Below are positions 24,649 to 61,214 of a stretch of DNA of 64,000 nucleotides, piece after piece (the stretch's first letter is position 1; the number at the start of each line of letters is the position of its first letter). The position numbers and the translations under genes were made by a program. The notes below the pieces were generated by a model that worked only from the letters and a program-made list of their open reading frames with translations, ran no database searches and was not told the DNA's origin. The DNA comes from Blastomonas sp. SL216 (lineage in GTDB: Bacteria; Pseudomonadota; Alphaproteobacteria; Sphingomonadales; Sphingomonadaceae). The stretch covers positions 3,579,001 to 3,643,000 of the forward strand of contig CP113055.1 in NCBI GenBank assembly GCA_026625625.1, given 5' to 3'.

Positions 24649-24713
24649 CTGGCCCAGTCTCCTTCGATGCGTCGCTGCAGGACGTCTTGCCTTCTGACAT
24701 ACACAAAATAAAA

Positions 24714-24721
24714 ACTCAGAC
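24714..24721 (-). promoter_or_regulatory. GTCTGAGT promoter motif, copy 1
   Basis: ACTCAGAC on the plus strand (GTCTGAGT on the minus), embedded in an A/T-rich tract in the gap between the divergent GH43 and GH2 genes. The minus-strand context is TTTGTCTGAGTTTTTAT. The same octamer recurs upstream of three other units of this locus, and a variant upstream of a fifth. Confidence 0.6.
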
Positions 24722-24827
24722 AAATAGTTGATCGCAGCTGCGGGGCCGCTAGGATATGGGCAAGACGAACAGGAGGCGGCCGCTGTGGCGGACGGACCAG
24801 ATTCAGGACAGGCAGGGGAGTTTGGCA

Positions 24828-27551
24828 GTGTTGGCAATCACTTACGGCAAGACGGCGGACAGCCGCGCCGCCTGGCCGGGGCTCTCGGTGCTGATGATCC
24901 TGCTGCTGGTGCTGTCCGGTCCCGTTTTCGCGCAATCGGCGCCGCGTCAGCGCGAATCGATCAACAGCGGCTGGCGGTTCACCCTCGGCGACCCTGTCGG
25001 CGAGACCGCGGAACTGCGCTATGATGTCCGTCCGGCCTATGACGATGCTGGCGACGGCAAGGAAGCCGATGCCCGGCCCGAAGAGGCGGCAAAGGTTCGC
25101 CGGGACGGATCCGGCGTGCTCAAGCCCTGGATCCTGCCCACCGCCAATCCTTTCATCAAGGATCCCGCCAAAAGACATGTGGCGCCCGAGGGCAATCCCG
25201 GCGGCGATGTCGCCTATGTCCAGCCCGGGTTCGACGACAGCGGCTGGACGCTAGTCGATTTGCCGCACGACTGGGCGATCGCAGGACCCTTTCTCGCGCA
25301 AGGCCCCTATGGCGGCATGGGGCGGCTGAAAAGCTGGGGCGTGGGCTGGTACCGGCGCGCGATCGACATTCCCGCGAGCGACAAGGGCAAATCGATCTTC
25401 CTCGATGTCGATGGGGCGATGTCCTATGCCACCGTCTGGCTCAACGGGCAGATCGTTGGCGGCTGGCCCTATGGCTATAACAGCTGGCGGGTGGACCTCA
25501 CCAAACACATCGTCCCCGGTGGCCGCAACGTGCTGGCGATCCGGCTCGACAATCCGCCCGCCTCGGCGCGCTGGTACCCCGGCGGCGGCCTGTACCGCGA
25601 CATCTGGCTGACCAAGGCGCAGCCGGTGCGCGTGGCGCAATGGGGCAGTGCGGTGACGACGCATGATGTCTCGGCAGCGTTCGCCACGGTCAAGGTCGCG
25701 CTGGCGATCGACAATGCCGGGAGCGAGGGCGCATCGGTCAGCGCCGTGACCGAGATTTTCGCGCTCGATGCCTCGGGCAAGCGCAAGGGCCGCGCGGTCG
25801 CCCGCATCGATCATGCGCCGGGCGAAGCGCCGGCAGGTGGCAGCGTCAGACTGCAGGGTGACGCTGTTGTCCGCCAGCCGCAGCTATGGGGCCCGCCGCC
25901 CACGCAATCGCCCCACCTTTATCTCGCGGTGTCGACGATCCGGCACGGCGGCCGCGTCAGCGATGTCTACGAGACCCGCTTCGGCATCCGCGATGTCCGG
26001 TTCGATCCCACCCAAGGCCTCGTCGTCAACGGCGAGAGGCTGCGCATCCAGGGCGTGAACAACCACCATGACCTCGGCGCATTGGGCGCGGCGTTCAACC
26101 GCCGCGCGGCGCAGCGCCAGCTCGAGATCCTGCGCGACATGGGGGTGAACGCCATCCGCATGAGCCACAACCCGCCCGCGCCCGGGCTGCTCGACCTCAC
26201 CGACGCCATGGGCTTTCTGGTGATGGACGAGGTGTTCGACAGCTGGGAGCTGAAGAAGACCCCGCTCGATTTCCACCTGATCTTCCCCGAATGGCGCGAG
26301 GCCGACCTGCGATCGATGATCCGGCGCGACCGCAATCACCCGTCGGTCATCCTGTGGAGCGTCGGCAACGAGGTCGGCGAGCAGTATAGCGGCGAGGCGG
26401 GCGCCAGCCTGACCCGCGAGCTGGTCATGATCGCCAAGGACGAGGACCCCAGCCGGCTGACCACGCTGGCGATGAACTTTGCCAAGGCCGACATGCCGAT
26501 GCCGCGCGAGGCCGAGGTGATCAGCCTGAACTATCAGGGGGCCGGGATCCGCGGCATCATCGGGCAATATCCCGCCTTTCACGCGGCATTCCCCGACAAG
26601 GTGATCCTCAGCAGCGAAAGCGCCTCGGCGCTGTCGAGCCGGGGCGAATATCTCTTCCCGGTTGCGGGCGCGATCAGCGGTCCGGTGCGCCCCTATTCGG
26701 GCGGCGATCCGGTGACTCACCAGGTCAGCGCCTATGAGATGCACGCGGCCGATTTCGGCTCGTCGCCCGACCGGGTGTTCGCCAGCGACGATCAGCATCC
26801 TTATGTGGCGGGCGAGTTCGTGTGGACCGGGTTCGATTATCTCGGCGAGCCTACGCCTTATTATACCTCGCGCAGCTCGTATTCGGGGATCATCGATCTC
26901 GCCGGTTTCCCCAAGGATCGCTTCTGGCTGTATCAGGCGCGCTGGCGGCCCGACTTGAAGTTCGCGCACATCCTTCCGCACTGGACCTGGCCGGGGCGCG
27001 AGGGTCAGGTTACCCCGGTGCACGTGTTCAGCTCCGCCGACGAGGCCGAACTGTTCGTCAACGGCGTGTCGCAGGGCAAGATCAAGAAGCGCGACTATGA
27101 ATATCGTTTCCGCTGGGATTACGTGACCTACGCGCCGGGCGAAGTCCGGGTCGAGACCTGGAAGCAGGGCAAGCCCTGGGCGCAAGCCAGCGTTGCCACC
27201 ACCGGCGCTGCCGCAGCGCTTGCGCTGAAGCCCGATCGGGCGGTGATTGCAGGCGACGGCCAGGACCTGTCGTTTGTCACGCTGAGCGTGGTGGATGCGA
27301 AAGGTGCGATGGTGCGACCGGCGAAGGACCCGGTGCGCTTCAGCATCGAAGGGCCGGGCGAGATCGTCGCCACCGACAATGGCGATCCCACCGACATGAC
27401 CGCGTTCCCCTCGCACCAGCGCCAGGCGTTCAACGGGCTGGCGCTGGTGATCGTGCGCGGTCTTCCGGGGCAATCGGGCAGGGTGACGGTGCGCGCGGAA
27501 GCCGACGGGCTGGCCCCGGCAAGCGCTGTCATTACCGTGCAAAAGCCATGA
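24828..27551 (+). CDS. glycoside hydrolase family 2 beta-galactosidase-like enzyme
   Basis: A GH2 enzyme of about 907 residues. A hydrophobic export segment (SVLMILLLVLSGPVFAQ) precedes an N-terminal jelly roll (WTLVDLPHDWAIAGPF), an Ig-like domain and a TIM barrel. The acid/base Glu is in ILWSVGNEVGEQYSG and the nucleophile Glu probably in VAGEFVWTGFDYLGEPTPYY. A C-terminal DUF4982 and a further Ig-like domain follow. An odd hydrophilic insert (about residues 45-95) interrupts the first jelly roll. The start is uncertain: ATG 24756 lacks a spaced ribosome site, CTG 24783 follows AGGAGG, and GTG 24828 follows GGGGAG and gives a short signal peptide; I favour GTG. Substrate could be galactosyl or other side chains of hemicellulose. 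Confidence 0.82.
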   Translation: MLAITYGKTADSRAAWPGLSVLMILLLVLSGPVFAQSAPRQRESINSGWRFTLGDPVGETAELRYDVRPAYDDAGDGKEADARPEEAAKVRRDGSGVLKPWILPTANPFIKDPAKRHVAPEGNPGGDVAYVQPGFDDSGWTLVDLPHDWAIAGPFLAQGPYGGMGRLKSWGVGWYRRAIDIPASDKGKSIFLDVDGAMSYATVWLNGQIVGGWPYGYNSWRVDLTKHIVPGGRNVLAIRLDNPPASARWYPGGGLYRDIWLTKAQPVRVAQWGSAVTTHDVSAAFATVKVALAIDNAGSEGASVSAVTEIFALDASGKRKGRAVARIDHAPGEAPAGGSVRLQGDAVVRQPQLWGPPPTQSPHLYLAVSTIRHGGRVSDVYETRFGIRDVRFDPTQGLVVNGERLRIQGVNNHHDLGALGAAFNRRAAQRQLEILRDMGVNAIRMSHNPPAPGLLDLTDAMGFLVMDEVFDSWELKKTPLDFHLIFPEWREADLRSMIRRDRNHPSVILWSVGNEVGEQYSGEAGASLTRELVMIAKDEDPSRLTTLAMNFAKADMPMPREAEVISLNYQGAGIRGIIGQYPAFHAAFPDKVILSSESASALSSRGEYLFPVAGAISGPVRPYSGGDPVTHQVSAYEMHAADFGSSPDRVFASDDQHPYVAGEFVWTGFDYLGEPTPYYTSRSSYSGIIDLAGFPKDRFWLYQARWRPDLKFAHILPHWTWPGREGQVTPVHVFSSADEAELFVNGVSQGKIKKRDYEYRFRWDYVTYAPGEVRVETWKQGKPWAQASVATTGAAAALALKPDRAVIAGDGQDLSFVTLSVVDAKGAMVRPAKDPVRFSIEGPGEIVATDNGDPTDMTAFPSHQRQAFNGLALVIVRGLPGQSGRVTVRAEADGLAPASAVITVQKP

Positions 27552-27586
27552 CAACGCGGACCTGGACTTGCATCTTGCATCAGAAA

Positions 27587-27600
27587 TGGTAGCGCTAACT
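27587..27600. promoter_or_regulatory. LacI-type operator candidate, copy 1 (TGGTAGCGCTAACT)
   Basis: A near-palindrome around AGCGCT, matching TGRTASCGCTAYCA at 11 or more of 14 positions. It lies 57 bp upstream of the GH43 lipoprotein gene and overlaps the GTCTGAGT-type motif at 27598-27605 by three bases. The likely ligand is the LacI-family protein encoded at 52983-54056. Confidence 0.65.
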
Positions 27601-27605
27601 CAGAC
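27598..27605 (-). promoter_or_regulatory. GTCTGAGT promoter motif, copy 2
   Basis: ACTCAGAC on the plus strand, 52 bp upstream of the GH43 gene start, abutting and partly overlapping the LacI-type site. Here the flanks are GC-rich, unlike the other copies. Confidence 0.5.
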
Positions 27606-27657
27606 TCCGGGCGGCAGCGATCGATCCGGGCGGATATAAGGTAGAGGAGCAGTTGCG

Positions 27658-28788
27658 ATGAATCGAATGAGCGCATTGGCACTGGGAGCTGCGCTGGCAG
27701 GCCTGGCCGCGACAACCGCGTGCAGCCCGCAACCCGCCGCCGATAACGACGCGCCGGAAGCCGCCAGCGATGCCGCAGTCAGCACCGACCGGGCCAAGGC
27801 CGATCCCTCGCGCTATCTCTCGCAGCCGCTGGTCACCGAAATCTACACCGCAGACCCGTCAGCGCATGTCTGGGACGGCAAGATCTATGTCTATCCCAGC
27901 CACGACATCGATGGCCCGACGCCCGAGGATGATCTTGGCGCGCATTTCGAGATGCGCGATTATCGCGTGCTGAGCATGGACAGCATCGGCGGCAAGGTGA
28001 CGACGCACCCGGTGGCGCTCGACGTCAAGGATGTGCCCTGGGCGGAAAAACAGATGTGGGCGCCCGATGCCGCGCGCAAGAACGGCACCTATTTCCTCTA
28101 CTTTCCAGCGAAGGACAAGCAGGGCGCGTTCCGCATCGGCGTCGCGACTTCCAAATCGCCTGTGGGCCCGTTCAAGGCGGCGCCGCAGCCGATCAAGGGC
28201 AGCTTCTCGATCGACCCTGCCGTGTTCACCGACGATGACGGCAAGTCCTATATGTATTTCGGCGGCATCTGGGGCGGGCAGCTGCAGCGCAACACCACCG
28301 GCACGTACGATCCCAACGGTTCGAAGACCGATCTCAAGGCGCCCGACAAGCCCGCGCTCGCCCCCAAGGTGGCGGCGATGGCCGACGACATGATGGAGTT
28401 TTCGGAAAAGCCGCGCGATCTGGTGATCCTCGACAAGGCGGGCAAGCCGATCCTCGGCGGCAACACCGATCGCCGCTTCTTCGAGGCATCGTGGATGCAC
28501 AAGTACAACGGCAAATACTATTTCAGCTACTCGACCGGTGACACGCATTACCTCGTCTATGCGACCGGAGACTCGCCTTATGGTCCGTTCACCTATCAGG
28601 GCCGCATCCTGGAACCGGTCGAAGGCTGGACGTCGCACCATTCGATTGTCGAATGGGATGGCCGCTGGTGGCTGTTCTATGCGGATACCCAGCTGTCCGG
28701 CACCACCCGGCTGCGCAACGTCAAGGTGACCGAGCTGTTCTACAATCCTGACGGCTCGATCAGGACCATCAAGCCGATGGTGAAGTAA
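27658..28788 (+). CDS. GH43 arabinofuranosidase/beta-xylosidase, probable lipoprotein
   Basis: A 376-residue GH43 enzyme with an export signal ending in a possible lipobox (GLAATTAC, Cys22), so it may be anchored to a membrane facing the periplasm. After a Pro/Ala/Asp linker, the catalytic propeller shows the base Asp in YTADPSAHVWDGKIYVY, the pKa Asp in SIDPAVFTDDDGK and the acid Glu in FFEASWMHKYNGKYY. There is no C-terminal sandwich, unlike the GH43 at 22990-24648. GAGGAG precedes the ATG by nine bases. Five bases separate it from xylulokinase, so hydrolysis and pentose use are co-expressed. Its promoter carries both motif types of this locus. The exact glycosidic bond is unproven. Confidence 0.87.
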   Translation: MNRMSALALGAALAGLAATTACSPQPAADNDAPEAASDAAVSTDRAKADPSRYLSQPLVTEIYTADPSAHVWDGKIYVYPSHDIDGPTPEDDLGAHFEMRDYRVLSMDSIGGKVTTHPVALDVKDVPWAEKQMWAPDAARKNGTYFLYFPAKDKQGAFRIGVATSKSPVGPFKAAPQPIKGSFSIDPAVFTDDDGKSYMYFGGIWGGQLQRNTTGTYDPNGSKTDLKAPDKPALAPKVAAMADDMMEFSEKPRDLVILDKAGKPILGGNTDRRFFEASWMHKYNGKYYFSYSTGDTHYLVYATGDSPYGPFTYQGRILEPVEGWTSHHSIVEWDGRWWLFYADTQLSGTTRLRNVKVTELFYNPDGSIRTIKPMVK

Positions 28789-28793
28789 CCGCG

Positions 28794-30275
28794 ATGTTCC
28801 TGGGCATCGATATCGGCACCTCGGGGGTCAAGGCGGTGGTGCTCGACGAGCATGGCGCGGTGGTGGCGCAGGGCACCGCCGCGCTCAGCGTCCAGCGGCC
28901 GCAATCCTTGTGGTCCGAACAGGACCCCGACGCCTGGTGGCAGGCGACGACCGCGGCTGTCCGTGCGATCGATCCGGCGGTGCGCCGCTCGGTGCGCGGC
29001 GTTGGCCTCGCTGGGCAGATGCACGGCGCGACCTTGCTGGGGGCTGACGACCAGCCGTTGCGCCCCGCGATCCTGTGGAACGACGGCCGCTCGTTTGCCG
29101 AATGCGGCGAACTGGAGACGCGCGAGCCCGATCTGCGCGCAATCTCGGGCAATATCGCGATGCCAGGCTTTACCGCCCCCAAGCTGCGCTGGGTCGCCAA
29201 CCACGAACCCGATGTATTCGCGCGGACGCGCACCGTGCTGCTGCCCAAGGATTATATCCGGCTGCAGATGACCGGCGAAAAGGCCTCCGACATGTCGGAT
29301 GCGGCGGGCACCTTGTGGCTCGATGTCGCGCGGCGCGAGTGGAGCCCTGCGCTGCTTGCGGCAACCGGGCTGGATGTGTCCCACATGCCGCGGCTGGTCG
29401 AAGGAACAGACGTCTCCGGCACGCTGCGCGCCGAAGTCGCCGAGCTCTGGGGCATGGGCGTGGTGCCCGTGGCGGGCGGCGGCAGCGACAATGCAGCAGG
29501 CGCGGCGGGAGTCGGCGTGGTGCGCAATGGCGATGCCTTGCTGTCGCTCGGCACGTCAGGAGTGATCTTCGTCGCCACCGACGCCTTCCGCCCCAATCCG
29601 GCGCGCGCGGTCCATGCCTTCTGCCATTGCCTGCCGGGGCTGTGGCACCAGATGTCGGTGCATTTGTCGGCCGCCTCGTGCATCGACTGGGTCGCGCGGC
29701 TGACCGGGGCTGCGGGCGCGGCCGACCTTTTCGCGCGCGCCGAAAGCACCGGCCCTGCCAGCGGGCCCGAGATCTTTCTGCCCTATCTCTCGGGCGAACG
29801 CACCCCGCACAACGATGCCGAGGTGCGCGGCGGCTTTCTGGGGCTCGACCATGACACCACGCCCGAACGGTTGGCGCAGGCGGTGCTCGAAGGCGTGGCG
29901 TTCGCGCTCGCCGATGGGCTCGACGCGCTGAGCGATGCGGGCACCCATGTGGAGCGGCTGTCGGTGATCGGCGGCGGCGCGCGCTCGCGCTATTGGGGGG
30001 AAACCCTGTCCGCCGTGCTCGGCGTCGAACTGGTCTATCTCAAGGGCGGCGAAGTCGGCCCGGCGCTGGGCGCAGCGCGGCTGGCGCAGCTCGCCGTCGA
30101 TGGCGGATCGCCCGCAGACATCTGCGCCGCCCCGCCGGTCGCGCATACACTCCACCCCGATGCGGACATCGCCGACCGGCTCGCACCCAAGCATGCCGCC
30201 TTTCGCGCTGCCTATCCGCGCATCACCCCCCGCAATCATGAGTTCCCCGTTAAACTGACTGGACCTGTCCCATGA
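28794..30275 (+). CDS. xylB: xylulokinase
   Basis: Phosphorylates D-xylulose to xylulose 5-phosphate. It is a 493-residue FGGY-family kinase: the N-terminal phosphate-binding loop [18 protein letters not shown], the substrate loop [35 protein letters not shown] and the C-terminal ATP site [16 protein letters not shown]. The ATG lies five bases after the GH43 stop; its own stop overlaps the xylose isomerase start (ATGA). Gene order and motifs make this assignment firm. Confidence 0.95.
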
Positions 30276-31579
30276 CCGACTATTTCGCCGACATTCCCAC
30301 CATCCGCTTCGAAGGCACCGAGACCGACAACGAACTGGCCTATCGCTATTACGACAAGGACCGGGTGGTGCTCGGCAAGCGGATGGAAGACCATCTGCGT
30401 TTTGCCGCCTGCTTCTGGCACACCTTCTGCTGGCCGGGCTCGGACGTGTTCGGCGCGGGCACGTTCGATCGGCCATGGCATCGCGGTGCCAATGATGGCC
30501 CGGCGTCTGCCGCCAAGCGCGCGGCAGCGTTCGACTTCTTCACCCGGCTCGATATCCCCTATTACTGCTTCCACGATGTCGACGTGATGGCCGACGCGCA
30601 CAATATCGCCGAGCATCGCGCCAATTTCGCCGAGGCCGTGGATGATCTCGAACGCCTGCAGGCGAGCTCTGGCCGCAAACTGCTCTGGGGCACCGCCAAC
30701 CTGTTCGGCAACCCGCGCTTTGCTGCCGGCGGCGCGACCAATCCCGATCCGGAGGTGTTCGCCTTCGGTGCGATGCAGGTGCGCGATGCGCTCGAAGCGA
30801 CCCACCGGCTGGGCGGCGCGAACTATGTGCTGTGGGGCGGGCGCGAAGGCTATGAGACGCTGCTCAACACCAATCTGGGCCGCGAGCTCGACAATCTGGG
30901 CCGGTTCCTCAACCTGGTGGTCGACCACAAGCACAAGATCGGCTTTGGCGGCACCATCCTGATCGAGCCCAAGCCGCACGAGCCGACCAAGCATCAATAT
31001 GATTTCGACAGCGCGACCGTCTACGGCTTCCTCAAGCGCTATGGGTTGGAGAACGAGGTCAAGGTCAATATCGAGGCCAACCACGCGACGCTCGCCGGGC
31101 ATACGTTCGAGCACGAGATCGCGATGGCGAGCGCGCTCGGCATTTTCGGGTCGATCGACGCCAACCGCGGCGATCACCAGAATGGCTGGGATACCGACCA
31201 GTTCCCCAATTCGGTCGAGGAACTGACCCTGGCGATGGTCGAGATCCTGCGCGCGGGCGGCTTCACCACTGGCGGCTTCAATTTCGATGCCAAGGTTCGC
31301 CGCCAGTCGATGGACGCGGTCGACCTGTTCTATGGCCATATCGGCGGCATCGACACCGTGGCGCGCGGGCTGCTCAATGCCGCCGCGTTGATCGAGGATG
31401 GCCGGATCGATGCGATCAAGGCCGAGCGTTATGCCGGATGGGACGGCGACTTCGGACAGGCAATCGCCGGGCTGGACCTGGCTGGAATCGCCGATCTGGC
31501 GGTCAGCAGCAACCTCGATCCCAAGCCGCGCTCGGGCCGGCAGGAGCGGATCGAGAACCTGATCAACCGCTTCATCTGA
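30272..31579 (+). CDS. xylA: xylose isomerase
   Basis: Interconverts D-xylose and D-xylulose. The 435-residue protein is of the longer class II type. The catalytic His lies in [12 protein letters not shown] near residue 100. The metal ligands lie in [18 protein letters not shown] and in [21 protein letters not shown], which carries the signature DxNRGD. The start overlaps the xylulokinase stop by four bases. With xylB it forms the isomerase route to the pentose phosphate pathway, in addition to the oxidative route encoded elsewhere in this window. Confidence 0.96.
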
Positions 31580-31606
31580 GCCGATGGCGCTCGAAAAGGG
31601 ACCGAA

Positions 31607-31630
31607 CCCGCGCTTGAGAACAGGCGCGGG
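31607..31630 (+). other. weak hairpin after xylA
   Basis: CCCGCGC (31607-31613) pairs with GCGCGGG (31624-31630) around a 10-base loop. No T-run follows, so it may stabilise the upstream mRNA end or weakly attenuate rather than terminate. Confidence 0.35.
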
Positions 31631-31642
31631 ACGCCCTATTAT

Positions 31643-31650
31643 GTCTGAGT
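31643..31650 (+). promoter_or_regulatory. GTCTGAGT promoter motif, copy 3
   Basis: GTCTGAGT followed by AATTAATTTTT, 24 bp upstream of the ketoglutarate-semialdehyde dehydrogenase gene. TATTAT just ahead of it (31637-31642) resembles a -10 element, so a bound regulator would block polymerase. Confidence 0.6.
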
Positions 31651-31674
31651 AATTAATTTTTCGGAGATGTGGTG

Positions 31675-33255
31675 ATGATTGATGGTGCGATGCTTGTCGG
31701 CAGCGAGGCACGCCAGGCGGCAGCCCGATTCCAGAGCCAGGATCCGGTCAGCGGGCAGGCGCTGTCGCCCGATTTTTCGTCCGCCACCGCCGAGGATGTG
31801 GCCGAGGCCTGCGCGCTGGCAGCTGGGGCGGCGCCCGTCTTTGGCGCCAGCGATCCGGAGAGCCGCGCCAGCTTCCTCGAAGCGATCGCCAGCGAAATCG
31901 AAGGCATCAGCGATGACCTGATCGTCCGCGCGATGCAGGAAAGCGGGCTGCCGCGTGCCCGGCTCGAAGGCGAGCGCGGGCGCACCACCGGGCAGCTTCG
32001 CCTGTTCGCCAAGGTCGTCCGCCAGGGCGACTGGCTTGATGCGACGATCGACCCGGCGATGCCTGACCGCGCGCCGCTGCCCCGGCCAGACCTGCGCCGG
32101 ATGAACATCGCGGTCGGTCCGGTCGCGGTGTTCGGAGCCTCGAATTTCCCGCTCGCCTTCTCGGTCGCTGGTGGTGACACCGCCTCGGCATTAGCCGCAG
32201 GCTGCCCGGTGGTGGTCAAGGGCCACCCGGCGCATCCTGGCACCGGCGAACTGGTCGCGCGCGCCATCCAGCGTGCAGTGGCTGCCTGCGGTCTGCCCGA
32301 AGGTGTATTCTCATATCTGCCGGGCGAGACCAACGCATTGGGCGAGGCGCTGGTCGCCGATCCGCGCATCAAGGCGGTGGGCTTTACCGGATCGCGAGGC
32401 GGCGGGCTGGCGCTGATGCGGATTGCCGCAGCCCGCAGCGAGCCGATACCGGTCTATGCCGAGATGTCGAGCATCAACCCCGTCATCCTGATGCCCGCAG
32501 CGCTGGCGGCACGCGGCCGGGCGCTGGCCGAAGGCTTCGTCCAGTCGCTGACCATGGGCGCCGGGCAATTCTGCACCAATCCCGGGCTGGTGGTTGCGGT
32601 CGAGGGTGCCGATCTGGACGCCTTTATGGCCGCCGCAGCCGAAGTGATGCAGGGCAGCGCGCCGCAGACCATGCTGTCACCGTCGATCCACGACAATTTT
32701 GCCAAGGGCGTGTCTGCGCTGGCAAGCCATGCGGCAGTGGAGACCATCGCGCGCGGCCAGAGCGAGACCGGTGCCAACCAGGCGGTCGCCGCTCTGTTCC
32801 AGACCAGCGCGCAACAGTTTCTCGCCGATGTCGCGCTGAGCCATGAGGTGTTCGGTTCCTCATCGGTCATTGTGCGCTGCCGGGATCTGGGCGAGGTGGC
32901 GAAGGTCATCGCCAGCCTGGAAGGCCAGCTGACCGCCACGCTGCAGCTCGACGACGGAGATGTCGAAGCGGCACGTACGCTGCTGCCGTTGCTGGCCGAC
33001 AGGGTCGGGCGGGTGCTCGCCAACGGCTGGCCGACCGGGGTCGAGGTGGCGCATGCGATGGTGCATGGCGGGCCGTTCCCCGCGACCAGCGATGGCCGCA
33101 CGACATCGGTGGGCACGCTCGCGATCTACCGGTTCCTGCGCCCCGTGGCGTTCCAGAACCTGCCCGCTGCGCTGCTGCCTGGCGGGATTGCCGATGAGAA
33201 CCCGTGGGGCGTCGCTCGGCGGGTCGATGGTCTGCGCGAAGGCTCGCCGCGGTGA
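31675..33255 (+). CDS. 2-oxoglutarate semialdehyde dehydrogenase, NADP-type aldehyde dehydrogenase
   Basis: Last step of oxidative pentose breakdown: 2-oxoglutarate semialdehyde to 2-oxoglutarate. The 526-residue protein has the distinctive KGSADH-type motifs: [13 protein letters not shown] for NADP, the base Glu in [12 protein letters not shown] and the catalytic Cys in [13 protein letters not shown]. Two upstream GTG codons are possible, but ATG 31675 has GGAG eight bases ahead. Its stop overlaps the AraD1 gene start (GTGA). It serves both the xylose and the arabinose branches, since no second such gene is in the window. It is the first gene of a four-gene unit. Confidence 0.88.
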
Positions 33256-34223
33256 TCGCCAGCCTCGTCCAGTTCGACGACGGCGCGCGCGGGGTCGCCG
33301 CGTTCCGCGATGGCACCGCTTATCGGGTGACGGGCGCAGACACCTCTCTGGCGCTCGCGCAAGCGGCGCTGGCGGCAGGGTCCAGCCTGGCCGACTATGC
33401 CGCCGACCGGCTGGGCGATCCGATCGATCTGGCGACCGTCCGCCTGCTGTGCCCGATCGACCATCTTGACGATGCGCATCTGCTGGTCAGCGGAACGGGC
33501 CTGACCCATCTGGGCTCGGCCGAGGGGCGCGACGCGATGCACCGCGCGGTGCAGGACAATCCCGACCCCACCGATTCGATGAAGATGTTTCTGATGGGCG
33601 TCGAGGGCGGCAAGCCTGCCGATGGCCAGCCGGGTGTCCAGCCCGAATGGTTCTACAAGGGGGACGGGTCGATCCTGGCGGTCCCCGGCGCGCCGCTCGA
33701 AATGCCGGGCTTCGCGCTCGACGGCGGCGAGGAGCCCGAGATCGCCGGGATCTACCTTATCGCTCCCGATGGAACGCCGACGCGGATCGGTTTTGCCCTG
33801 GGCAACGAGTTTTCCGACCATATCACCGAGCGCGGCAACTATCTGTGGCTGGCACATTCCAAGCTGCGCGCGGCGGCGCTGGGGCCTGAGCTGCTGCTGG
33901 GCGATCTGCCCGCCGATATCCGCGGCACCAGCACGATCTGGCGCGACGGGCAGGCGGTTTGGCAGAAACCATTCGTCTCGGGTGAAGCCAACATGTCGCA
34001 CAGCATTGCCAATCTGGAGCACCACCACTTCAAATATGCGGGCTTCCGCCGCCCGGGCGACGTCCATGTCCACTTTTTCGGTACCGCGACGCTGTCTTTC
34101 GCCGATGGGTTCATGACTCGCCCAGGCGACCGGTTCGAGATCGCGGCAGCCCCGTTCGCGCTTCCGGTGAGCAACACTCTTGCTCAGGCCGTGGATGCAC
34201 CGGTGAGGATCGCCGCGCTGTGA
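33252..34223 (+). CDS. AraD1/GguC-family fumarylacetoacetate-hydrolase-fold dehydratase
   Basis: A 323-residue FAH-superfamily protein of the AraD1 (GguC) type, found with L-arabinose genes and thought to dehydrate 2-keto-3-deoxy-L-arabonate to 2-oxoglutarate semialdehyde. The C-terminal FAH core has [24 protein letters not shown] and [17 protein letters not shown], with acidic and His residues for metal. The start is GTG 33252, overlapping the preceding stop by four bases; earlier codons would run into the dehydrogenase gene. It is distinct in sequence from the XylX-type FAH protein at 57155-58288, so the two probably act on different sugar acids. The precise reaction rests on family knowledge. 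Confidence 0.82.
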
Positions 34224-35140
34224 TCCGGATCGGCATCGTCGGGCTGGGCAAGATCGCGCGCGACCAGCATCTGCCAGCGATCGCCGAAAGCGCCGATTTC
34301 GTGCTGGCCGCGACCGCCAGCCGCAACGCCCGGGCCGAGGATGTCGCAGCCTATGCCGATCTGGACGCGATGCTGGCGGCCGAGCCAGACCTGCATGCGG
34401 TCGCCTTGTGCCAGCCGCCTCAGGTCCGCCACGCGGCCGCGCGCGCTGCGATTGCAGCGGGCAAGCATGTCTTTCTGGAAAAGCCACCCGGCGCGACCTT
34501 GTCCGAGGTCGAGGATCTGGCGGACGCTGCGGCGCAGGCGCGGGTGACGCTGTTCGCCAGCTGGCACTCGCGCTTTGCCGCAGGTGTCGAGCCTGCGCGC
34601 GCCTGGCTCGCAGACAAGGCGATTGAACGCATCGCCATCGAGTGGAAAGAGGATGTCCGCCAATGGCATCCGGGGCAGGACTGGATCTGGCAGCCAGGTG
34701 GCCTGGGCGTATTCGATCCCGGCATCAATGCGCTGTCCATCCTCACCCGGCTGGTGCCCGGTCCGGTCCGGCTGGAAGAGGCGCAGCTCGCATTCCCTGA
34801 AAACCGTGAGGCGCCGATCGCGGCGACATTGGCGATGCGGACGTCAGCTGGCGCGCCGATCTGCGCCACGTTCGACTGGCGACAGACCGGGCGGCAGAGC
34901 TGGAACATCGAGGTGAAGACCGATGCCGGGGTACTGCTGCTGGCGGACGGCGGCAACACGCTGCTGATCGATGGCGCAGCGCAGGCCTTGCCAGGCGAAG
35001 CGGAATATCCGTCGCTCTATGCGCATTTTGCCCGACTGATCGCCGAGCGGCGCAGCGATGTCGATGTCAGCCCGCTACGGCTTGTGGCCGATGCCTTCCT
35101 AACCGGGCGTCGTTCGTCTACGGATGCGTTTCACGACTGA
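34220..35140 (+). CDS. Gfo/Idh/MocA-family sugar 1-dehydrogenase (L-arabinose/D-galactose type)
   Basis: A 306-residue NAD(P)-dependent oxidoreductase. The N-terminal Rossmann fold begins [19 protein letters not shown], and the catalytic Lys is in KHVFLEKPPGATLSE near residue 90. The C-terminal alpha/beta domain shows WKEDVRQWHPGQDWIWQPGGLGVFDPGINALSIL, a segment characteristic of galactose/arabinose 1-dehydrogenases such as AraA of Azospirillum. It would oxidise L-arabinose to the lactone. GTG start overlaps the AraD1 stop (GTGA). Coupled to AraD1 and KGSADH, it makes L-arabinose the best guess; galactose or other aldoses remain possible. Confidence 0.82.
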   Translation: MIRIGIVGLGKIARDQHLPAIAESADFVLAATASRNARAEDVAAYADLDAMLAAEPDLHAVALCQPPQVRHAAARAAIAAGKHVFLEKPPGATLSEVEDLADAAAQARVTLFASWHSRFAAGVEPARAWLADKAIERIAIEWKEDVRQWHPGQDWIWQPGGLGVFDPGINALSILTRLVPGPVRLEEAQLAFPENREAPIAATLAMRTSAGAPICATFDWRQTGRQSWNIEVKTDAGVLLLADGGNTLLIDGAAQALPGEAEYPSLYAHFARLIAERRSDVDVSPLRLVADAFLTGRRSSTDAFHD

Positions 35141-35158
35141 ACGAAAGGCAGGCGGATC

Positions 35159-35869
35159 ATGGAGGACGCGCGCAGCGCATCGCCTCGCATCCACGGGGCA
35201 ATCGCCCATGACATCGGCGTGGAGATCGTCGGCGGTATCCGCAAGCCCGGCGACGTCTTCGGCGGAGAGATCGAGGCCAGCGAGGCGCTGGGCATCTCGC
35301 GCACCGCCTATCGCGAGGCGATCCGCATTCTGGCCGCCAAGGGGCTTGTCGAAAGCCGCCCCAAGGCAGGCACGCGGGTCACCGCGCGGCACCGCTGGAA
35401 CCTGCTCGACCCCGATGTTCTGGCGTGGACGTTCGAGGGCGAGCCCGACCCCGAGTTCATCCTCGACCTGTTCGAGCTGCGCGGCGTGATCGAACCGGCT
35501 GCCGCCGCCTTTGCCGCCCGCCGCCGCAGCCAGGAGCAGCTCGATGCCATGCAGGCGGCACTCGACGACATGGGCCGGCTGGGGCTGGCAGTGAGCGAAG
35601 GGCGCGCCGCCGACCAGCGCTTCCACCGCGTCATTCTGGCTGCAGCAGGCAACGAGGCGCTGGCCGCGCTGGCCAGCTCGGTGGGAGCTGCGGTCAGCTG
35701 GACCACCAAGTACAAGCAGCGTACCCGCGCGCTGCCGCGCGACCCCTTGCCCGACCATATCCTGGTGTACCAGGCGATTGCCGCCAGCGACCCCGACGGC
35801 GCACACCGGGCAATGGCGCAGCTGCTGCATCTGGCGCTGGCTGACATGGACCTGCCGCCCCGCGCCTGA
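35159..35869 (+). CDS. GntR-family regulator, FadR/FCD type
   Basis: A 236-residue repressor or activator. The N-terminal winged helix has GEIEASEALGISRTAYREAI and LVESRPKAGTRVTAR (residues 35-80). The C-terminal all-helical FCD domain has FELRGVIEPAAAAFAAR, DQRFHRVILAAAGN and DHILVYQAIAASD, carrying the metal/ligand His and Asp residues. It is the last gene of the KGSADH-AraD1-dehydrogenase unit, 18 bp after it. FCD regulators sense sugar acids. The GTCTGAGT motif found at five promoters of the locus resembles half of the TTGTCTGACAA-like sites of such proteins, so this may be its regulator (inference). Confidence 0.9.
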   Translation: MEDARSASPRIHGAIAHDIGVEIVGGIRKPGDVFGGEIEASEALGISRTAYREAIRILAAKGLVESRPKAGTRVTARHRWNLLDPDVLAWTFEGEPDPEFILDLFELRGVIEPAAAAFAARRRSQEQLDAMQAALDDMGRLGLAVSEGRAADQRFHRVILAAAGNEALAALASSVGAAVSWTTKYKQRTRALPRDPLPDHILVYQAIAASDPDGAHRAMAQLLHLALADMDLPPRA

Positions 35870-35890
35870 TCCAGCCCGCGACCGCGTGCC

Positions 35891-37687
35891 TCAATGGTTG
35901 TCGCGCGGCAGGCCCATCGTCTGGGCAATCCGCTGATATTTCTCAGCCCCTTCCAGGATCGCACCGCTGCTCATCTGGCCGACGACCGAGCGCTGGATTT
36001 CCTGCCACGGCGTCTGCGATGCGGGATAGGCAAAGCCGCCTGCCGCCTCCAGCGCGGCACGGCGTTCGGCCAGTTCCTCGTCGCTGACCAGCACATTGGC
36101 GGTGGCGTTGCGCAGGTCGATCCGCACCCGGTCACCGGTACGGATCAGCGCCAGCCCGCCCATGGCAGCGGCTTCGGGGCTGGCGTTGAGGATCGAGGGC
36201 GAACCCGATGTCCCCGATTGCCGCCCATCACCGATGCAGGGCAGGGCATGGACGCCTTCAATGATGAGATAGGATGGCGGACGCATATTCACGACTTCGG
36301 CCGCACCCGGATAGCCGATCGGCCCCGCGCCGCGCATGAACAGCAGGGTTTCAGGGGTGATCCCGGTGGCAGGATCGTCGATCCGCGCATGATAATCCTC
36401 CGGCCCGTCGAACACCACGGCAGGGCCCTCGAAGGCATCGGGATCGTCCGGGTTGGACAGATAGCGCGCGCGAAATTCGGGCGAGATGACGCTGGTCTTC
36501 ATCACCGCCGCGTCGAAGAGATTGCCCGACAGGACGAGAAAGCCTGCATCCTGCACAAGAGGCTGCGCGAACGGGCGGATGACCTTCTCGTCCTCGATAG
36601 CGACACCGCGGCAGTTCTCGCCGATGGTCCGGCCATTCGCGGTGACGGCATCCTCGTGGATCAGGCCTTGTTCGATCAGCTGGTTGACCACGGCCGGCAC
36701 GCCGCCGGCGCGATAGAAATCCTCGCCCAGATATTCACCGGCCGGTTGCAGATTGACCAGCAGCGGGATCTTGTGCCCCTCGCGCTCCCAGTCCTTGATC
36801 GGCAGATCGACGCCCATATGGCGGGCGATGGCGCTGAGATGGATCGGGGCGTTGGTCGAGCCGCCAATGGCGCTGTTGACGCGGATGGCATTGCTGAAGG
36901 CCTGGCGAGTCAGGATATCCGAAGGTTTCAGGTCCTCCCTGACCATGTCGACGATACGCCTGCCGGTTCGCCAGGCAACCTCCTGCCGGTCGCGATAGGG
37001 CGCGGGAATGGCGGCCGAGCCGGGCAGCGACATGCCGAGCGCTTCGCACAGCGAGTTCATCGTCGTCGCGGTACCCATCGTGTTGCAATAGCCGGTCGAG
37101 GGGGCCGAGGAAGCGACCAGCTTGATAAACTGCGCATCGTCGATCTCGCCCGCCGCCAGCATCTGCCGCGCCTTCCACACGATCGTGCCCGATCCGGTGC
37201 GTTCGCCCTTGTGCCAGCCGTTGAGCATCGGCCCCACCGACAGCGCAATGGCGGGGATGTTGACCGTCGCCGCCGCCATCAGGGCGGCAGGGGTGGTCTT
37301 GTCGCAACCGATGGTCAGGACGACGCCATCAAGCGGATAGCCATAGAGTATCTCGACCAGGCCGATATAGGCGAGGTTGCGATCCAGTGCGGCGGTCGGC
37401 CGCTTGCCCGTTTCTTGGATGGGATGAACCGGAAACTCGATGACGATTCCGCCCGCTTCGCGCACGCCTTCACGCACCCGCTCGGCGAGCACCAGATGAT
37501 GCCGGTTGCACGGGCTGAGGTCGCTGCCGGTCTGCGCGATGCCGATGATCGGCTTGCCCGATTGCAGTTCTTCAAGGCTGAGCCCGAAATTGAGATAGCG
37601 CTCCAGATAGAGTGCGGTCATGTCGATATTGTCGGGATTGTCGAACCAGGCGCGGCTGCGCAGCTTCGGGCGTTGCGTATCGGACAT
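35891..37687 (-). CDS. xylD: IlvD/Edd-family pentonate (D-xylonate/L-arabonate) dehydratase
   Basis: Dehydrates D-xylonate to 2-keto-3-deoxyxylonate, step three of the Weimberg route. The 598-residue sequence follows Caulobacter XylD closely from [21 protein letters not shown] to the end (PRDNH). Iron-sulfur ligands are the Cys of [20 protein letters not shown] and [19 protein letters not shown] and [19 protein letters not shown] form the substrate region. It lies 38 bp after the aldose epimerase gene and converges with gntR. It is 17 kb from the xylX-B-C operon but is the only such dehydratase here, so it may serve both xylonate and arabonate. Confidence 0.92.
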
Positions 37688-37725
37688 TGGGACAGGAAGC
37701 TCCGGTAAGGGCAGGCAGCGCAGGG

Positions 37726-38868
37726 TCAGGGCGCAACCGACAGGCGATAGATCATGACATGCGAATAGGGGCGGCCGGGATCGACCCGGGCTGAAGCGAA
37801 GTCGGGCCGGTTGGGGGCATCGGGGAATTTCTGCGGTTCCAGCGCGATGCCGTCGCCCATGCGGTAGACATGACCGCGCTTGCCGATCACCGAGCCGTCG
37901 AGGAAATTGCCAGTGTAGAGCTGCACGCCCGGCTCGGTCGAAAGGACCTCCAGAATGCGGCCCGATTGCGGATCTTCCAGCCGCGCGGCCAGTTGCGGCA
38001 GGGGGGTGAGCCCCTTGTCGAGCGCGAAATTATGGTCATAGCCGCGCGCCCGCACGATCTGCGGATCGCGTCCATCGCGTATCCCCTGATCGAGCGACCT
38101 TGCGGTGCGAAAATCGAACACGGTTCCCTGCACGGGGCGCAGCGCCCCGGTGGGGATGAGCGTCTCATCGACCGGCGTAATGGCCGCCGCGGGAATGGTC
38201 AGCCGGTGCCCCAGCGCGCCGCCCGGCGCACCTTCGCCGGCCAGGTTGAAGATCGCATGATTGGTCATGTTGATCACCGTCGGGCGATCCGTACTGGCAT
38301 CGAAGCGGATGGTCAGCGCGCCATGGTCGTCCAGGCTATAGGTGACCACAGCCTCGACTTTGCCCGGATAGCCCTGATCGCCATCGGCACTGGTCAATGC
38401 CAGCGTGACCGATGCCTGGCGGCCCTGGGTGACGCGCACGATCCGCCATGGACGCTTGTCGAAGCCGACCGCGCCGCCGTGCAGCGAATTGCCCTTGTCG
38501 TTCTGAGAGACCTGATAGCTCTTGCCGTCGATGGCAAAGCGTCCGCCAGCGATCCGGTTGGCATAACGGCCCACCGTCACGCCGAAATAGCTGGGTAGGC
38601 GGGCATAATCGGCGGCATCGTCGAACCCCAGCAGCACATCGGCAAGCTCGCCCGCGCTATCGGGTGCAGTGAGCGATTGCAGCGTCGCGCCATAGCTGAT
38701 GATCCGCGCCGATACGCGGTTGGTGCCGGTCAGCGTCACGGCTTCGATCACCGTGCCGTCCTCCAGCGTTGCTGCAGTGCTGCGCTCGGCGGTCGCAGCT
38801 GAGGCCTGACTGCAGGGCAACAGGGCCATGCAGATCAGGCCGGATCGCCTCAGCATATGTGTCGCCAC
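37726..38868 (-). CDS. galM: exported aldose 1-epimerase
   Basis: A 380-residue mutarotase. A signal peptide (to about residue 24, SQASA) indicates a periplasmic protein. GalM features are visible: [31 protein letters not shown] with the catalytic His, [13 protein letters not shown] with the second His, and the base Glu in [17 protein letters not shown] near the end. The start is GTG 38868 after GGGGGA, or ATG 38856. It speeds interconversion of alpha and beta sugars before uptake or oxidation. It heads the operon with xylD and diverges from a FucP-like carrier across 104 bp. Confidence 0.88.
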
Positions 38869-38920
38869 GATTGCATCCCCCTTGCAGCGCCTCTGATTGA
38901 CGCCTCGTGGGCAAGTATAT

Positions 38921-38928
38921 ACTCAGAC
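38921..38928 (-). promoter_or_regulatory. GTCTGAGT promoter motif, copy 4
   Basis: ACTCAGAC on the plus strand in the galM / carrier divergent gap. It overlaps TATACT (38918-38923), a -10 candidate for the plus-strand carrier preceded by TTGACG (38897-38902) with a short 15-bp spacer. The placement suits a repressor site. Confidence 0.6.
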
Positions 38929-38972
38929 AATTACACCTGCACAAGAGCAAGGCTGGGGGAGAGAGCGTTACC

Positions 38973-40268
38973 ATGGAAGCCAATCACCGCGCGGCGCCGA
39001 TCGCAGCTGACGCCAGCGACCAACGGCGCGGTTACAGGCCCGCACTGACGCTACTGGCCAGCTTGTTTTTCATCTGGGGCTTCGTCACGGTGATCAACAA
39101 CACGTTGCTGCCGCACCTGCGTAACGTGTTTGATCTCAGCTACACACAGACGACGCTGATCGAATCGGTCTGGTTCATCGCCTATTTTCTCGCCTCGATT
39201 CCCTCGGCCAGACTGATCGCGCGGATCGGCTATCAGCGCGCGATGGTCACCGGCCTGCTGGTGATGGCGATCGGTGCGCTGGGGATGATGCTGGCGGCGA
39301 GCCTGCCATCCTATGGTGTGACGCTGGTCATGCTGTTCGTCATCGCCGCCGGCATCACCCTGCTGCAGGTGGCGGCGAATCCCTATGTCGCTGTCATCGG
39401 CCCTGCCGAGTCGGCACCATCGCGTCTCAACCTTGTGCAGGCAATGACTTCGGCCGGGACCATGCTGGCGCCGCTTTTCGGGGCGTATCTTATTCTCGGG
39501 CGATCAAAGGGAGGAACCGCTGAGGCGGGGACGATCCTTACCGAGGCGGAACGGCTGGCGGATGCGCATTCGGTCATCCTTCCATATGGGCTTGTGGCGC
39601 TCGCATTGTTTGCGCTCGCTGCGATCGTTGCCCGTTTTCCCTTGCCGGCTTTAGGGTCGTCAACCGCCCGCGCATCGCGCGAGGAGCGCAAGGCGCTGTC
39701 GCTGTGGAAGCATCGCAACCTCGTCTGGGGCATTCCTGCGATCCTCGTCTATCTGATTGCCGAAATCGGGGTAGCCAACCTGTTCGTGAACTTCGTTAGC
39801 CAGCCTCAGATCGTGGGCCTGACCCAGGCCGAGGCCGGTCGCTATCTGACGCTGCTCTGGGCTGGGATGATGATCGGCCGGTTCGCGGGGTCTGCCCTGA
39901 TGCAGCGCTTTGCCGCTGAGTCGGTGCTGGCGATATTCGCGGTCATTGCCTTCATGCTGATGCTGGCGACGGTGTTCCTGTCGGGGCCGGCAGCCATGTG
40001 GACGCTGATCCTTGTCGGCCTGTTCCATTCGATCATGTTTCCGACGATTTTCACATTGGGAATCCGGGAGCTGGGGCCGTTGACCGAAGAAGGATCGGGT
40101 CTGCTGATCATGGCGATTGCTGGCGGAGCACTGGTCGTCGTTCAGGGCTGGCTTGCCGATATTCATGGTCTCCAGGCTTCGTTCATGCTGACGGCAGCCT
40201 GCGAACTGTTCATCCTCTTCTATGCGATTTGGGGGAGCCGTCCGTCGGCATATGCGACAGGCTCTTGA
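38973..40268 (+). CDS. FucP/GluP-family sugar:H+ symporter (MFS)
   Basis: A 431-residue inner-membrane carrier of the fucose/glucose-galactose permease family. The N-terminus has FFIWGFVTVINNTLLPHLR, the family hallmark, followed by SVWFIAYFLASIPSARLI and GITLLQVAANPYVAVIGP. The C-terminal half has GIRELGPLTEEGSGLLIMAIAGGA. ATG 38973 follows GGGGGAGAGAG. It sits between galM and the TonB receptor gene (94 bp downstream), a common arrangement for sugar uptake in sphingomonads and Caulobacter. Pentose such as xylose or arabinose is the likely cargo; not proven. Confidence 0.87.
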   Translation: MEANHRAAPIAADASDQRRGYRPALTLLASLFFIWGFVTVINNTLLPHLRNVFDLSYTQTTLIESVWFIAYFLASIPSARLIARIGYQRAMVTGLLVMAIGALGMMLAASLPSYGVTLVMLFVIAAGITLLQVAANPYVAVIGPAESAPSRLNLVQAMTSAGTMLAPLFGAYLILGRSKGGTAEAGTILTEAERLADAHSVILPYGLVALALFALAAIVARFPLPALGSSTARASREERKALSLWKHRNLVWGIPAILVYLIAEIGVANLFVNFVSQPQIVGLTQAEAGRYLTLLWAGMMIGRFAGSALMQRFAAESVLAIFAVIAFMLMLATVFLSGPAAMWTLILVGLFHSIMFPTIFTLGIRELGPLTEEGSGLLIMAIAGGALVVVQGWLADIHGLQASFMLTAACELFILFYAIWGSRPSAYATGS

Positions 40269-40276
40269 CAGCAATA

Positions 40277-40285
40277 ACTCTGAGT
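40277..40285. promoter_or_regulatory. palindromic variant ACTCTGAGT, copy 5, at TonB receptor promoter
   Basis: ACTC-T-GAGT is a perfect 9-bp palindrome sharing TCTGAGT with the other copies. It lies between TTGACA (40265-40270), a -35 candidate, and TATTAT (40285-40290), about 80 bp upstream of the receptor start. Flanks AATA/ATTA match copies 3 and 4. Confidence 0.55.
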
Positions 40286-40299
40286 ATTATCAGTACGAG

Positions 40300-40313
40300 T
40301 GATAGCGCTACCA
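40300..40313. promoter_or_regulatory. LacI-type operator candidate, copy 2 (TGATAGCGCTACCA)
   Basis: TGATAGCGCTACCA, identical over 14 bases to the site before xylX at 58308-58321. It lies 49 bp upstream of the TonB receptor start and 15 bp after the ACTCTGAGT palindrome, so this promoter can respond to both regulators. Confidence 0.75.
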
Positions 40314-43300: not shown

Positions 43301-43499
43301 CAGCTTTGGTCAGCTCGATTTTTCGGGCAATGTCGATCTGGCGCAAGTCTTTGGCAACGATTACCTTCCGACGCTGGTCCTGAACGTGATCAACATCACC
43401 AAGGAAGCGCAAAGCACTTTCTTCCAGTTCCCGAACGCGACCTTCAACCAGTATAATCCGGGTATGCAGGTTCTGGTCGGAGTTCGCGGCCGCTTCTGA
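40362..43499 (+). CDS. TonB-dependent receptor (Caulobacter/sphingomonad sugar type)
   Basis: A 1045-residue outer-membrane active transporter, probably for xylo-oligosaccharides. A signal peptide (residues 1-29, ending GIALAQ) is followed by a TonB box (GDIVVTGF, about 50). The plug domain comes next: FPDTNIAESLNRIPGITIAR, then SSVAIRGLGTNFTRVLLNG and SLLEGGAAGTINLRAARPF. The 22-stranded barrel ends in VLVGVRGRF with terminal Phe. Size and plug features fit the large receptors next to glycan genes in this group. The promoter carries both regulatory motifs and a strong terminator follows. The ligand is inferred from neighbouring GH67, GH43 and GH3 genes. Confidence 0.92.
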   Translation: MVARIQSVRVGLLNAVAASALAMPGIALAQSAEDNTPAANAPESAVESTEGDVSEGDIVVTGFRASLESQTLAKRNSVGFTDSIFAEDIGKFPDTNIAESLNRIPGITIAREVTGEGSSVAIRGLGTNFTRVLLNGAPVAIASVRFDAQSTNREVDLDLIPTELFTQLTVSKSPTASLLEGGAAGTINLRAARPFDNPKPYISYGLQGSKVDIADKWGYRGHLVASATFGDFGILVGGAAVRNNFRVDGFETIGWTNPNLTAAQRTSGTRNATGGGNFTIPATVPSRAGNGLTPGATIDQALLLALNPGATIDQIDNGIIPRLGRPRTEIGFRERYNGLVSIEWRPSDNFNFYLDGMYAQRDTEFTRTAMNWVGRNGAVIPINTTYDKADCAAGCTVTGGTFANSQFFLEYRPYKDTQDYFGINPGIEFKLNDWIRGDLQANYTKSNFRRESPTFLVITPPNSGLTVTYKNDGGIPQIQSSFDLNNPANFGWDGGGRVNLNGEERETETKGVRGSLLFGDESRFSVRIGGAYDDTKRRITPFDNTAAWQNLICGNGININLLSPNTSATPCTGLNQPGTAAPAGFPTFPGYGTNATAGAPPIRYAGSLIPTALVPSYLRPGDNGYITVDWDKVRRDTNYDALLAGATEVGSGSSGANGGLIREKVTGAFVEANGVFDIGDNRLRLNGGVRYVHTEQIVGGRVSVPDPRNNPVGAPPIADGGRFPNIITFPRSNNKYSNFLPSASAAFDIGDTAVVRASISRTMTRPDPNALLPGASFIQPSADIGNVGNADLDPFISDNIDLGVEIYTGGEGVIAFAAFRKSITGFTVNGITNVPFSFFEQFGINVDSLTQTQREALAARATPGQALRDVIVSVQQQVNSDGKLKVNGLEFQVTQPLDFLTRHIGVTGFGVQGNLTLIEQKGEGVGAPAVALGVAPTTYTLTGYYDKNGISARLTYTYNEGSQVSNPNQNGIAQAAIFGRSFGQLDFSGNVDLAQVFGNDYLPTLVLNVINITKEAQSTFFQFPNATFNQYNPGMQVLVGVRGRF

Positions 43500-60322: not shown

Positions 60323-60706
60323 TCAGGGATGAGCGTTTCGTCGTAGGAGATTTCCGCCCATGGCGACGAGGATCATGGCCTGTGAGACATCGATGCGCTT
60401 CTCGTAGTCGCGGACCAATCGGCGCCACCGGATCATCCAGCCAAAAGTCCGCTCGACGACCCATCGTCGTGGCAGCACCTTGAAGCCTTGCTGCTGATCG
60501 CTGCGGCGGATGACCTCGATGACGAAATCCAGATAGCTGGCCTTGTCCATGAGCTTGAGACGGTCATAGGCGCCATCGGCAAACAGATGCTTGATCCATG
60601 GCCATCGCCTCCGAATGCCATCGAGGATGGTCTGGGCACCTGCGCTGTCCGAAATGTCTGCGGTGGTGAGGTTGACCATAAGCAACCGGCCGTCAGTATC
60701 CACGGC
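60323..60706 (-). pseudogene. IS5-family transposase, C-terminal half
   Basis: The minus frame carries AVDTDGRLLMVNLTTADISD, then KHLFADGAYDRLKLMDKA with a catalytic Asp and RRWVVERTFGWMIRWRRLVRD with the catalytic Glu, ending NLLRRNAHP at TGA inside the terminal repeat. It is the natural continuation of the N-terminal half found on the opposite strand at 60720-61133. There is no start of its own. Confidence 0.85.
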
Positions 60707-60719
60707 GAGCCGAGGGCGG

Positions 60720-61133: not shown

Positions 61134-61214
61134 TGCTGCGTCCACATACAGAGCATGAATCAGACTGCTAACCTCAGCGCAACCCCTTCAGGCGATTTTC
61201 CAAACAGCCTCTTA

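Follow-up and report, generated by a model that had tools for sequence, protein, structure and literature searches.

In a 64,000-nucleotide stretch of the Blastomonas sp. SL216 genome (the window; contig CP113055.1, positions 3,579,001 to 3,643,000), the octamer GTCTGAGT recurs upstream of sugar genes and is very probably the core of a palindromic candidate operator, WWWSTCNGASWWW. We consider it highly likely that the FCD/FadR-type GntR regulator encoded at 35159..35869 (plus strand; all positions are those of the window) binds this operator as a dimer and represses four promoter units, thereby controlling the use of arabinose and xylose. This reading draws on the sites themselves, their conservation, their co-occurrence with the protein, and the families of the genes that they precede. 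The predicted operators, none with an assigned strand, are AAACTCAGACAAA (24712..24724) in the GH43/GH2 divergent promoter, TATGTCTGAGTAA (31640..31652) before the unit encoding a probable alpha-ketoglutarate semialdehyde dehydrogenase (KGSADH), AraD1, a Gfo/Idh oxidoreductase, and the GntR protein, ATACTCAGACAAT (38919..38931) in the divergent promoter between galM-ilvD and a FucP-like carrier, and TAACTCTGAGTAT (40275..40287) before a TonB-dependent receptor.

An Octamer Cluster and a Candidate Operator

Exact copies of GTCTGAGT occur four times in the window, at 24714, 27598, and 38921 on the minus strand and at 31643 on the plus strand, and ACTCTGAGT is located at 40277-40285. The first-pass annotation, which read the octamer as the mark of a local pentose regulon under the FCD-type GntR, had placed all five correctly, as a rescan showed. 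It had also proposed a genome-wide scan, and this returned eight exact copies in 3.86 Mb, four of them clustered in one 14.2-kb part of the window (simulated probability 1.5e-5 under uniform placement). Dinucleotide shuffles of the window held 0.95 octamers on average, with 4 of 100 shuffles reaching four, and one-mismatch octamers showed no enrichment there (21 observed vs. 27.3 expected). Among the octamers outside the window, three (L001, L003, and L004) lie within long open frames and one (L002) is apparently intergenic, upstream of a ferredoxin-reductase-like frame (frames read by eye). A direct count over six 20-kb stretches of the same genome (120 kb) found no exact copy and 14 one-mismatch copies against the 17.2 expected from the one-mismatch rate of the genome-wide scan, which is therefore not badly undercounting. 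The octamer cluster in the window is real, unusually concentrated, and not chance.

The unit is a palindrome of 11-13 bp with a free centre base rather than the octamer as first described. The left half-site is TGTC or ACTC and the right one GACA or GAGT, with a single free base between them, and the operators are set in AT-rich DNA. The 13-mer WWWSTCNGASWWW matches eight places in the genome: 24712, 31640, 38919, and 40275 of the window and four elsewhere, all of the latter inside open frames (read by eye); its reversed control matches 12. A pattern TWSTCNGASWA was dropped because it requires an outer T/A that some real sites lack; it matched the genome in 11 places, of which the cluster contains one, and its reversed control matched in 56.

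Promoter alignments of the window with up to five syntenic relatives showed that the sites are kept. The 24712 site lies in a block of ∼40 bp that is identical in all four aligned genomes, and the site between GH2 and its GH43 neighbour (GH43a) is retained in each of the three relatives (of five) that have both genes side by side. At KGSADH, the site is exact in four of five relatives and at galM/carrier in all five, the conserved block at both being TGTCTGAGT(A/T). The receptor palindrome ACTCNGAGT is kept in five of five, with invariant half-sites around a centre base that reads T (window), A, C, A, C, and G in the six genomes. In one relative (G006), GH43a lies ∼22 kb from the GntR gene and the motif still stands just upstream of GH43a; xylBA is absent there, KGSADH directly follows the second GH43 gene (GH43b) with its LacI-type palindrome, and the GntR site of KGSADH is lost. 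KGSADH and GntR have apparently been joined to the GH43b unit in this genome (L047/L048), a natural promoter swap.

The sites also stand close to promoter-like elements. The 31640 site comes directly after a promoter-like TTGAGA-17-TATTAT, which ends at the base immediately preceding the octamer, the 38919 site overlaps TATACT, and the receptor operator lies downstream of a TTGACA conserved in the aligned genomes. Upstream of the KGSADH promoter, an inverted repeat (31607-31630; CCCGCGC..GCGCGGG) carries the −35-like TTGAGA in its loop, and in relatives both sides of its stem carry base differences.

Co-occurrence of Motif and Regulator

A strict 14-mer, WWWACTCAGACAWW, matched 15 times in nine genomes of the genus, always in the six that have the GntR protein, and its reversed form matched none of the nine; the three genomes without GntR also give no receptor match at E 1e-100, so that their lack of the motif is weak evidence. 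Across 397 genomes of the family, the 14-mer was present in 35 of 83 GntR-positive and 14 of 314 GntR-negative genomes (odds ratio 15.6, Fisher p 1.5e-16), and with the genus left out in 29 of 77 and 14 of 311 (p 3e-13); these p-values are too small, as genomes of one family are related rather than independent. The positive set leaves aside 10 genomes whose best homologue has an E value between 1e-38 and 1e-30, and counting these as positive gives 35 of 93 vs. 14 of 304 (p 1.5e-14). In total, 80 matches fell in GntR-positive and 15 in GntR-negative genomes, compared with 1 and 24 for the reversed pattern, so GntR-negative genomes are not above control.

Among 166 loci with a GntR homologue in named genomes, we then took the 80 best, which are spread over Blastomonas, Sphingomonas, Sphingopyxis, Sphingobium, Novosphingobium, Altererythrobacter, Caulobacter, Brevundimonas, Asticcacaulis, Methylobacterium, and some bins. 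In Sphingomonas, Caulobacter, and Methylobacterium, the motif is again found next to GntR homologues. For counts outside the genus, four window-genus loci (three Blastomonas and one Sphingomonas sp.) were excluded, leaving 76, and a site between divergent genes was counted once for each gene. On this basis, the motif was found in 73 of 312 upstream regions and at 40 of 76 loci; the reversed pattern gave 2 regions, and simple shuffles gave a mean of 4.9 and a maximum of 12. Gene by gene, it precedes the carrier in 24 of 35 cases, galM in 18 of 36, GH43a in 4 of 4, the receptor in 1 of 1, ilvD in 11 of 47, KGSADH in 8 of 28, GntR in 4 of 76, AraD1 in 3 of 44, and Gfo/Idh in 0 of 31.

From 95 matches in the family we selected 21 distant copies, lying either on a different contig or no nearer than 26 kb to the GntR gene. 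Fourteen of them precede pentose or glycosidase-type genes confirmed by search: GH51 arabinofuranosidase (2), GH43, GH2, GH3, GH27-type, GH42-like, TonB receptor, carrier, carrier/ilvD, galM, ilvD, KGSADH, and AraD1. One more has a GH43-like downstream gene (by eye only), and six are ill-fitting or not judgeable, including copies at a DUF5695 gene, a contig end, and a sucA-like frame. The last of these (L258, site 2546; frame read by eye) may be a link to alpha-ketoglutarate entry, or chance. The pentose regulon with the FCD GntR as its regulator, as the first-pass annotation had it, is strongly supported by site conservation, by the 397-genome co-occurrence, and by these distant copies. Its word "local" holds for the window's genome, which has no distant copies, and does not hold for related species, which carry them.

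The GntR Protein and the Form of Its Predicted Site

The 35159 protein matches PF00392 (35.6 bits, cut-off 27) and PF07729 (79.3 bits, cut-off 24.3), and the resulting order of an N-terminal GntR winged helix-turn-helix and a C-terminal FCD domain places it in the FadR (FCD) subfamily. None of the NCBIfam equivalog models was matched above its cut-off, and the matches listed include no DgoR model. Among solved chains, 7c7e matches the protein best in sequence (E 5e-26, over query residues 17-222). R48 and R52, equal to Arg45 and Arg49 of the FadR recognition helix in an alignment made by eye, are invariant in 80 of 80 homologues; both FadR residues are among the DNA contacts in Table 1 of PMC4494728. 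At the position of FadR Arg35, by contrast, all 80 homologues have Ile, Val, Leu, or Met. The residue there has been tied to G/C at operator positions 6/14 (PMC4494728), and a non-Arg residue accords with the A or T that our operator has at the presumed equivalents. Of the possible metal-ligand positions in the FCD domain, Asp152, His156, and His200 never change in 80 of 80 homologues; a fourth conserved His was not found, so no metal binding is proposed.

In FadR-subfamily sites, three bases separate the boxes TKGT and ACMA (Suvorova et al. 2015, PMC4494728). The sites here are alike in having half-sites around a three-base middle (TTGT-CTG-A..), and the window's TTGTCTGAGTA resembles a FadR-type operator in which one half is altered: compared with TKGT-N3-ACMA, the TTGT half and the middle are present, whereas the other half is mostly AGTA or AGTT. 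The receptor site differs further, with ACT/AGT on both sides. The full TTGTC-N-GACAA does occur in a few relatives, before GntR (G245, L190), galM (G312), and KGSADH (L175).

A Proposed Mechanism

From these data we infer binding, repression, an inducer, substrates, and a double control. In the absence of pentose, a GntR dimer would sit on or beside the −10 element and block the promoters of the GH43/GH2 divergent pair, the KGSADH-AraD1-dehydrogenase-GntR operon, the galM-ilvD/carrier divergent pair, and the TonB receptor. Because its gene lies inside the KGSADH operon, GntR would also regulate itself. Release would be brought about by an acid formed on the pentose oxidation pathway, with a pentonate or 2-keto-3-deoxypentonate the likeliest; occlusion of a promoter with release by a pentose acid is the usual logic of this regulator family. 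A second, LacI-type repressor would act on TAGCGCTA palindromes before xylBA and the D-xylose oxidation operon, and the two repressors would meet at the receptor promoter.

The xylBA Octamer and the LacI-Type Palindromes

The octamer before GH43b-xylBA (27598..27605, minus strand) abuts a LacI-type palindrome, TGGTAGCGCTAACT (27587..27600, no assigned strand). It is absent from all five aligned relatives, which keep TGRTAGCGCTA there, and we rejected it as a regulon site for this lack of conservation; outside the genus, the motif was found in 0 of 3 GH43b and 0 of 7 xylB upstream regions. The octamer at this promoter is probably a chance match, and xylBA, earlier counted as a regulon member, drops out, the conserved element there being the LacI-type palindrome. 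A small doubt about this rejection is left by the receptor upstream region of Sphingomonas caeni (L188), which carries an overlapping GTCCGAGTTAGCGCTACCA. In that region, GTCCGAGT passes directly into TAGCGCTACCA, so that GntR-like and LacI-like elements overlap.

LacI-type palindromes of the form TGRTAGCGCTA lie at 27587, 40300, and 58308 of the window, with a weaker form at 49906, and precede xylBA, the receptor, and the D-xylose oxidation operon. The pattern TGRTANCGCTAWCH has four places in the genome, three of them in the window, and its reversed control also has four; it is, therefore, the clustering and not the number that counts as evidence. At the receptor promoter, the palindrome is TGATAGCGCTACCA (40300..40313, no assigned strand) with the core TAGCGCTA, which starts 26 bp after the start of ACTCTGAGT. 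This spacing is equal in six genomes, among which the DNA between the two elements varies. The candidate binder of the TAGCGCTA palindromes is the LacI-family regulator at 52983..54056 (plus strand), whose gene adjoins a D-xylose dehydrogenase gene (NF053674, 429.6 bits, cut-off 400). Nearby are one gene of the SMP-30 type, one of the FAH family, and a sugar porter that comes closest to XylE yet stays below the XylE cut-off. A LacI gene together with TAGCGCTA palindromes before xylose genes points to LacI-type xylose control in this region. A transposase-like frame (DUF4096, IS4/5 type; 60591-61343) stands at the edge of the sugar region.

One could go further and read the single GntR lineage, an asymmetric operator of fixed orientation, and a receptor promoter shared with the presumed xylose LacI as an arabinoxylan coincidence gate, a proposal that we put forward tentatively and think rather doubtful. 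The lineage, found here in Sphingomonadales, Caulobacterales, and Methylobacterium, would control oxidative pentose use, and in the window's genus the receptor would be made only in the presence of both arabinose- and xylose-derived signals. D-xylose oxidation, too, would then require GntR, since KGSADH and the IlvD-type dehydratase would be under its control.

Alternative Explanations

Binding of the octamer by some other regulator, such as the LacI protein at 52983 or another GntR paralogue, with the 35159 GntR as an operon bystander, is the alternative that survives best, and we judge it improbable. The LacI gene does lie within the same sugar region, its presumed palindrome abuts the xylBA octamer, and in one genome (G177) a GntR paralogue (40% identity) adjoins a motif copy. 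TAGCGCTA, however, is a distinct conserved motif that stands at xylBA although the octamer is not conserved there, and it is the close GntR homologue that the motif tracks over 397 genomes. Moreover, the window's genome otherwise contains only remote GntR matches (best E 1.9e-8), and the half-site spacing fits FadR-subfamily sites (PMC4494728).

Still less probable is that the motif is a promoter or activator element (an extended −10 context or an activator box) instead of a repressor operator. In favour of this, the motif overlaps or abuts −10-like hexamers in a fixed orientation: before the carrier, 26 of 26 copies point in one direction (TATACT overlapping in 23), before KGSADH 8 of 8 (TATTAT abutting in 7), and before galM 16 of 17. 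Against it, the position on the −10 element suits a repressor, dimeric regulators typically have palindromic sites with a free centre, and the motif is concentrated in GntR-positive genomes. Chance recurrence in AT-rich intergenic DNA, to which the 4 in 100 shuffles and the chance-like xylBA copy might speak, is very improbable given only eight genomic copies, conservation with diverged flanks, and reversed controls at zero within the genus and near zero outside it, and is already contradicted by the genus, 397-genome, and 76-locus results.

Besides the limits on the genus and family counts given above, several results weigh against GntR repression through this operator. It is odd that a symmetric dimer should have two types of half-site, and most copies join TTGT to AGTA or AGTT in place of the FadR-subfamily box. 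Of the GntR-positive family genomes, 48 of 83 lack the strict 14-mer (some of them have variants such as TTGTCCGACTATA), and at 36 of the 76 loci outside the genus the regions examined contain no copy of the motif. A promoter scan gave no overall excess (2 pairs vs. 2.8 in shuffles), with one pair at KGSADH and none at the other three operator sites. In an unbiased listing of exact palindromes over the 312 upstream regions, the form with one free base was outside the top 14 of either list, where a partly asymmetric site would not be expected to rank. By themselves, this listing and the promoter scan do not support the operator. The listing was headed by TTGT-N6-ACAA and TTGTC-N4-GACAA (27 and 20 regions). 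The 20 TTGTC-N4-GACAA regions are 10 Caulobacter loci whose divergent GntR/AraD1 promoter is seen from both sides; the spacing is unlike that of the main operator, and the element may consist of overlapping half-sites. These loci, with the palindrome between GntR and AraD1, are L204, L207, L209, L210, L211, L213, L215, L224, L228, and L232.

Genes of the Region

The GH43 gene with a beta-xylosidase-type C-terminal domain (22990..24648, minus strand) and the GH2 gene (GalB family; 24756..27551, plus strand) flank the first operator, followed by GH43b, xylulokinase (xylB), and xylose isomerase (xylA) at 27658..31579 (plus strand). The KGSADH unit, on the plus strand, begins with the aldehyde dehydrogenase (31675..33255), which reached no equivalog cut-off and whose probable substrate is suggested by its neighbours. 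It continues with AraD1 (33204..34223; NF040903, 486 bits, cut-off 340), whose reaction is likewise putative, and a Gfo/Idh/MocA oxidoreductase (34220..35140), a probable pentose dehydrogenase, before the GntR gene. On the minus strand follow an IlvD/Edd-family dehydratase, a probable pentonate dehydratase (35891..37687), and a galM-like aldose 1-epimerase (37726..38868); the FucP/GluP-like major facilitator superfamily sugar carrier (38973..40268) and the TonB-dependent receptor (40362..43499) are on the plus strand. KGSADH, AraD1, the Gfo/Idh dehydrogenase, the IlvD-type dehydratase, the mutarotase, and the carrier probably make up an oxidative pentose route, with presumptive substrates. Three ILVD_EDD genes are present in the genome. 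The other two would usually be biosynthetic IlvD and Edd, and if so, the 35891 gene would be the sole pentonate dehydratase.

Significance and Comparison with Known Systems

For many alphaproteobacteria, the regulon would supply a named motif and a named protein behind the control of pentose oxidation and of foraging for arabinan/arabinoxylan. The motif can indicate distant target genes, and each predicted site is testable with one short probe. The receptor promoter would present a naturally occurring case of two repressors, and the Ile found where FadR has Arg35 offers a test of a change of half-site preference within the family. Oxidative pentose pathways are also useful in biotechnology.

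The system is of a known kind. Halomonas, the host of AraR2 and GguR, belongs to a different bacterial class. Both are predicted GntR-family regulators, AraR2 likewise of oxidative arabinose genes and GguR of aldarate and hexuronate genes (PMC5507952). PMC11252243 concerns a different GntR, the gluconate repressor; PMC4052901 gave no match to Sphingo or XylR, and the main text of PMC4494728 none to Caulobacter or Methylobacterium. No description of this regulon or motif was among the literature matches listed, by which its absence from print is not shown.

Caulobacter controls D-xylose oxidation through XylR/LacI. Here, too, a LacI gene stands beside a D-xylose dehydrogenase operon with TAGCGCTA palindromes; the likeness is one of gene context and concerns the second operator, not the octamer. 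The closest comparison for the GntR protein is DgoR, the D-galactonate repressor of E. coli, whose chain 7C7E is its best sequence match among solved chains and which belongs to the same FadR/FCD subfamily. DgoR is a dimer and represses through two inverted repeats overlapping its promoter (PMC12288454). In contrast to the D-galactonate neighbourhood that would mark a DgoR orthologue, the neighbours here are of pentose type, with pentose oxidation, glycosidase, and receptor genes; the predicted sites lie before several units, and one half-site departs from TKGT/ACMA.

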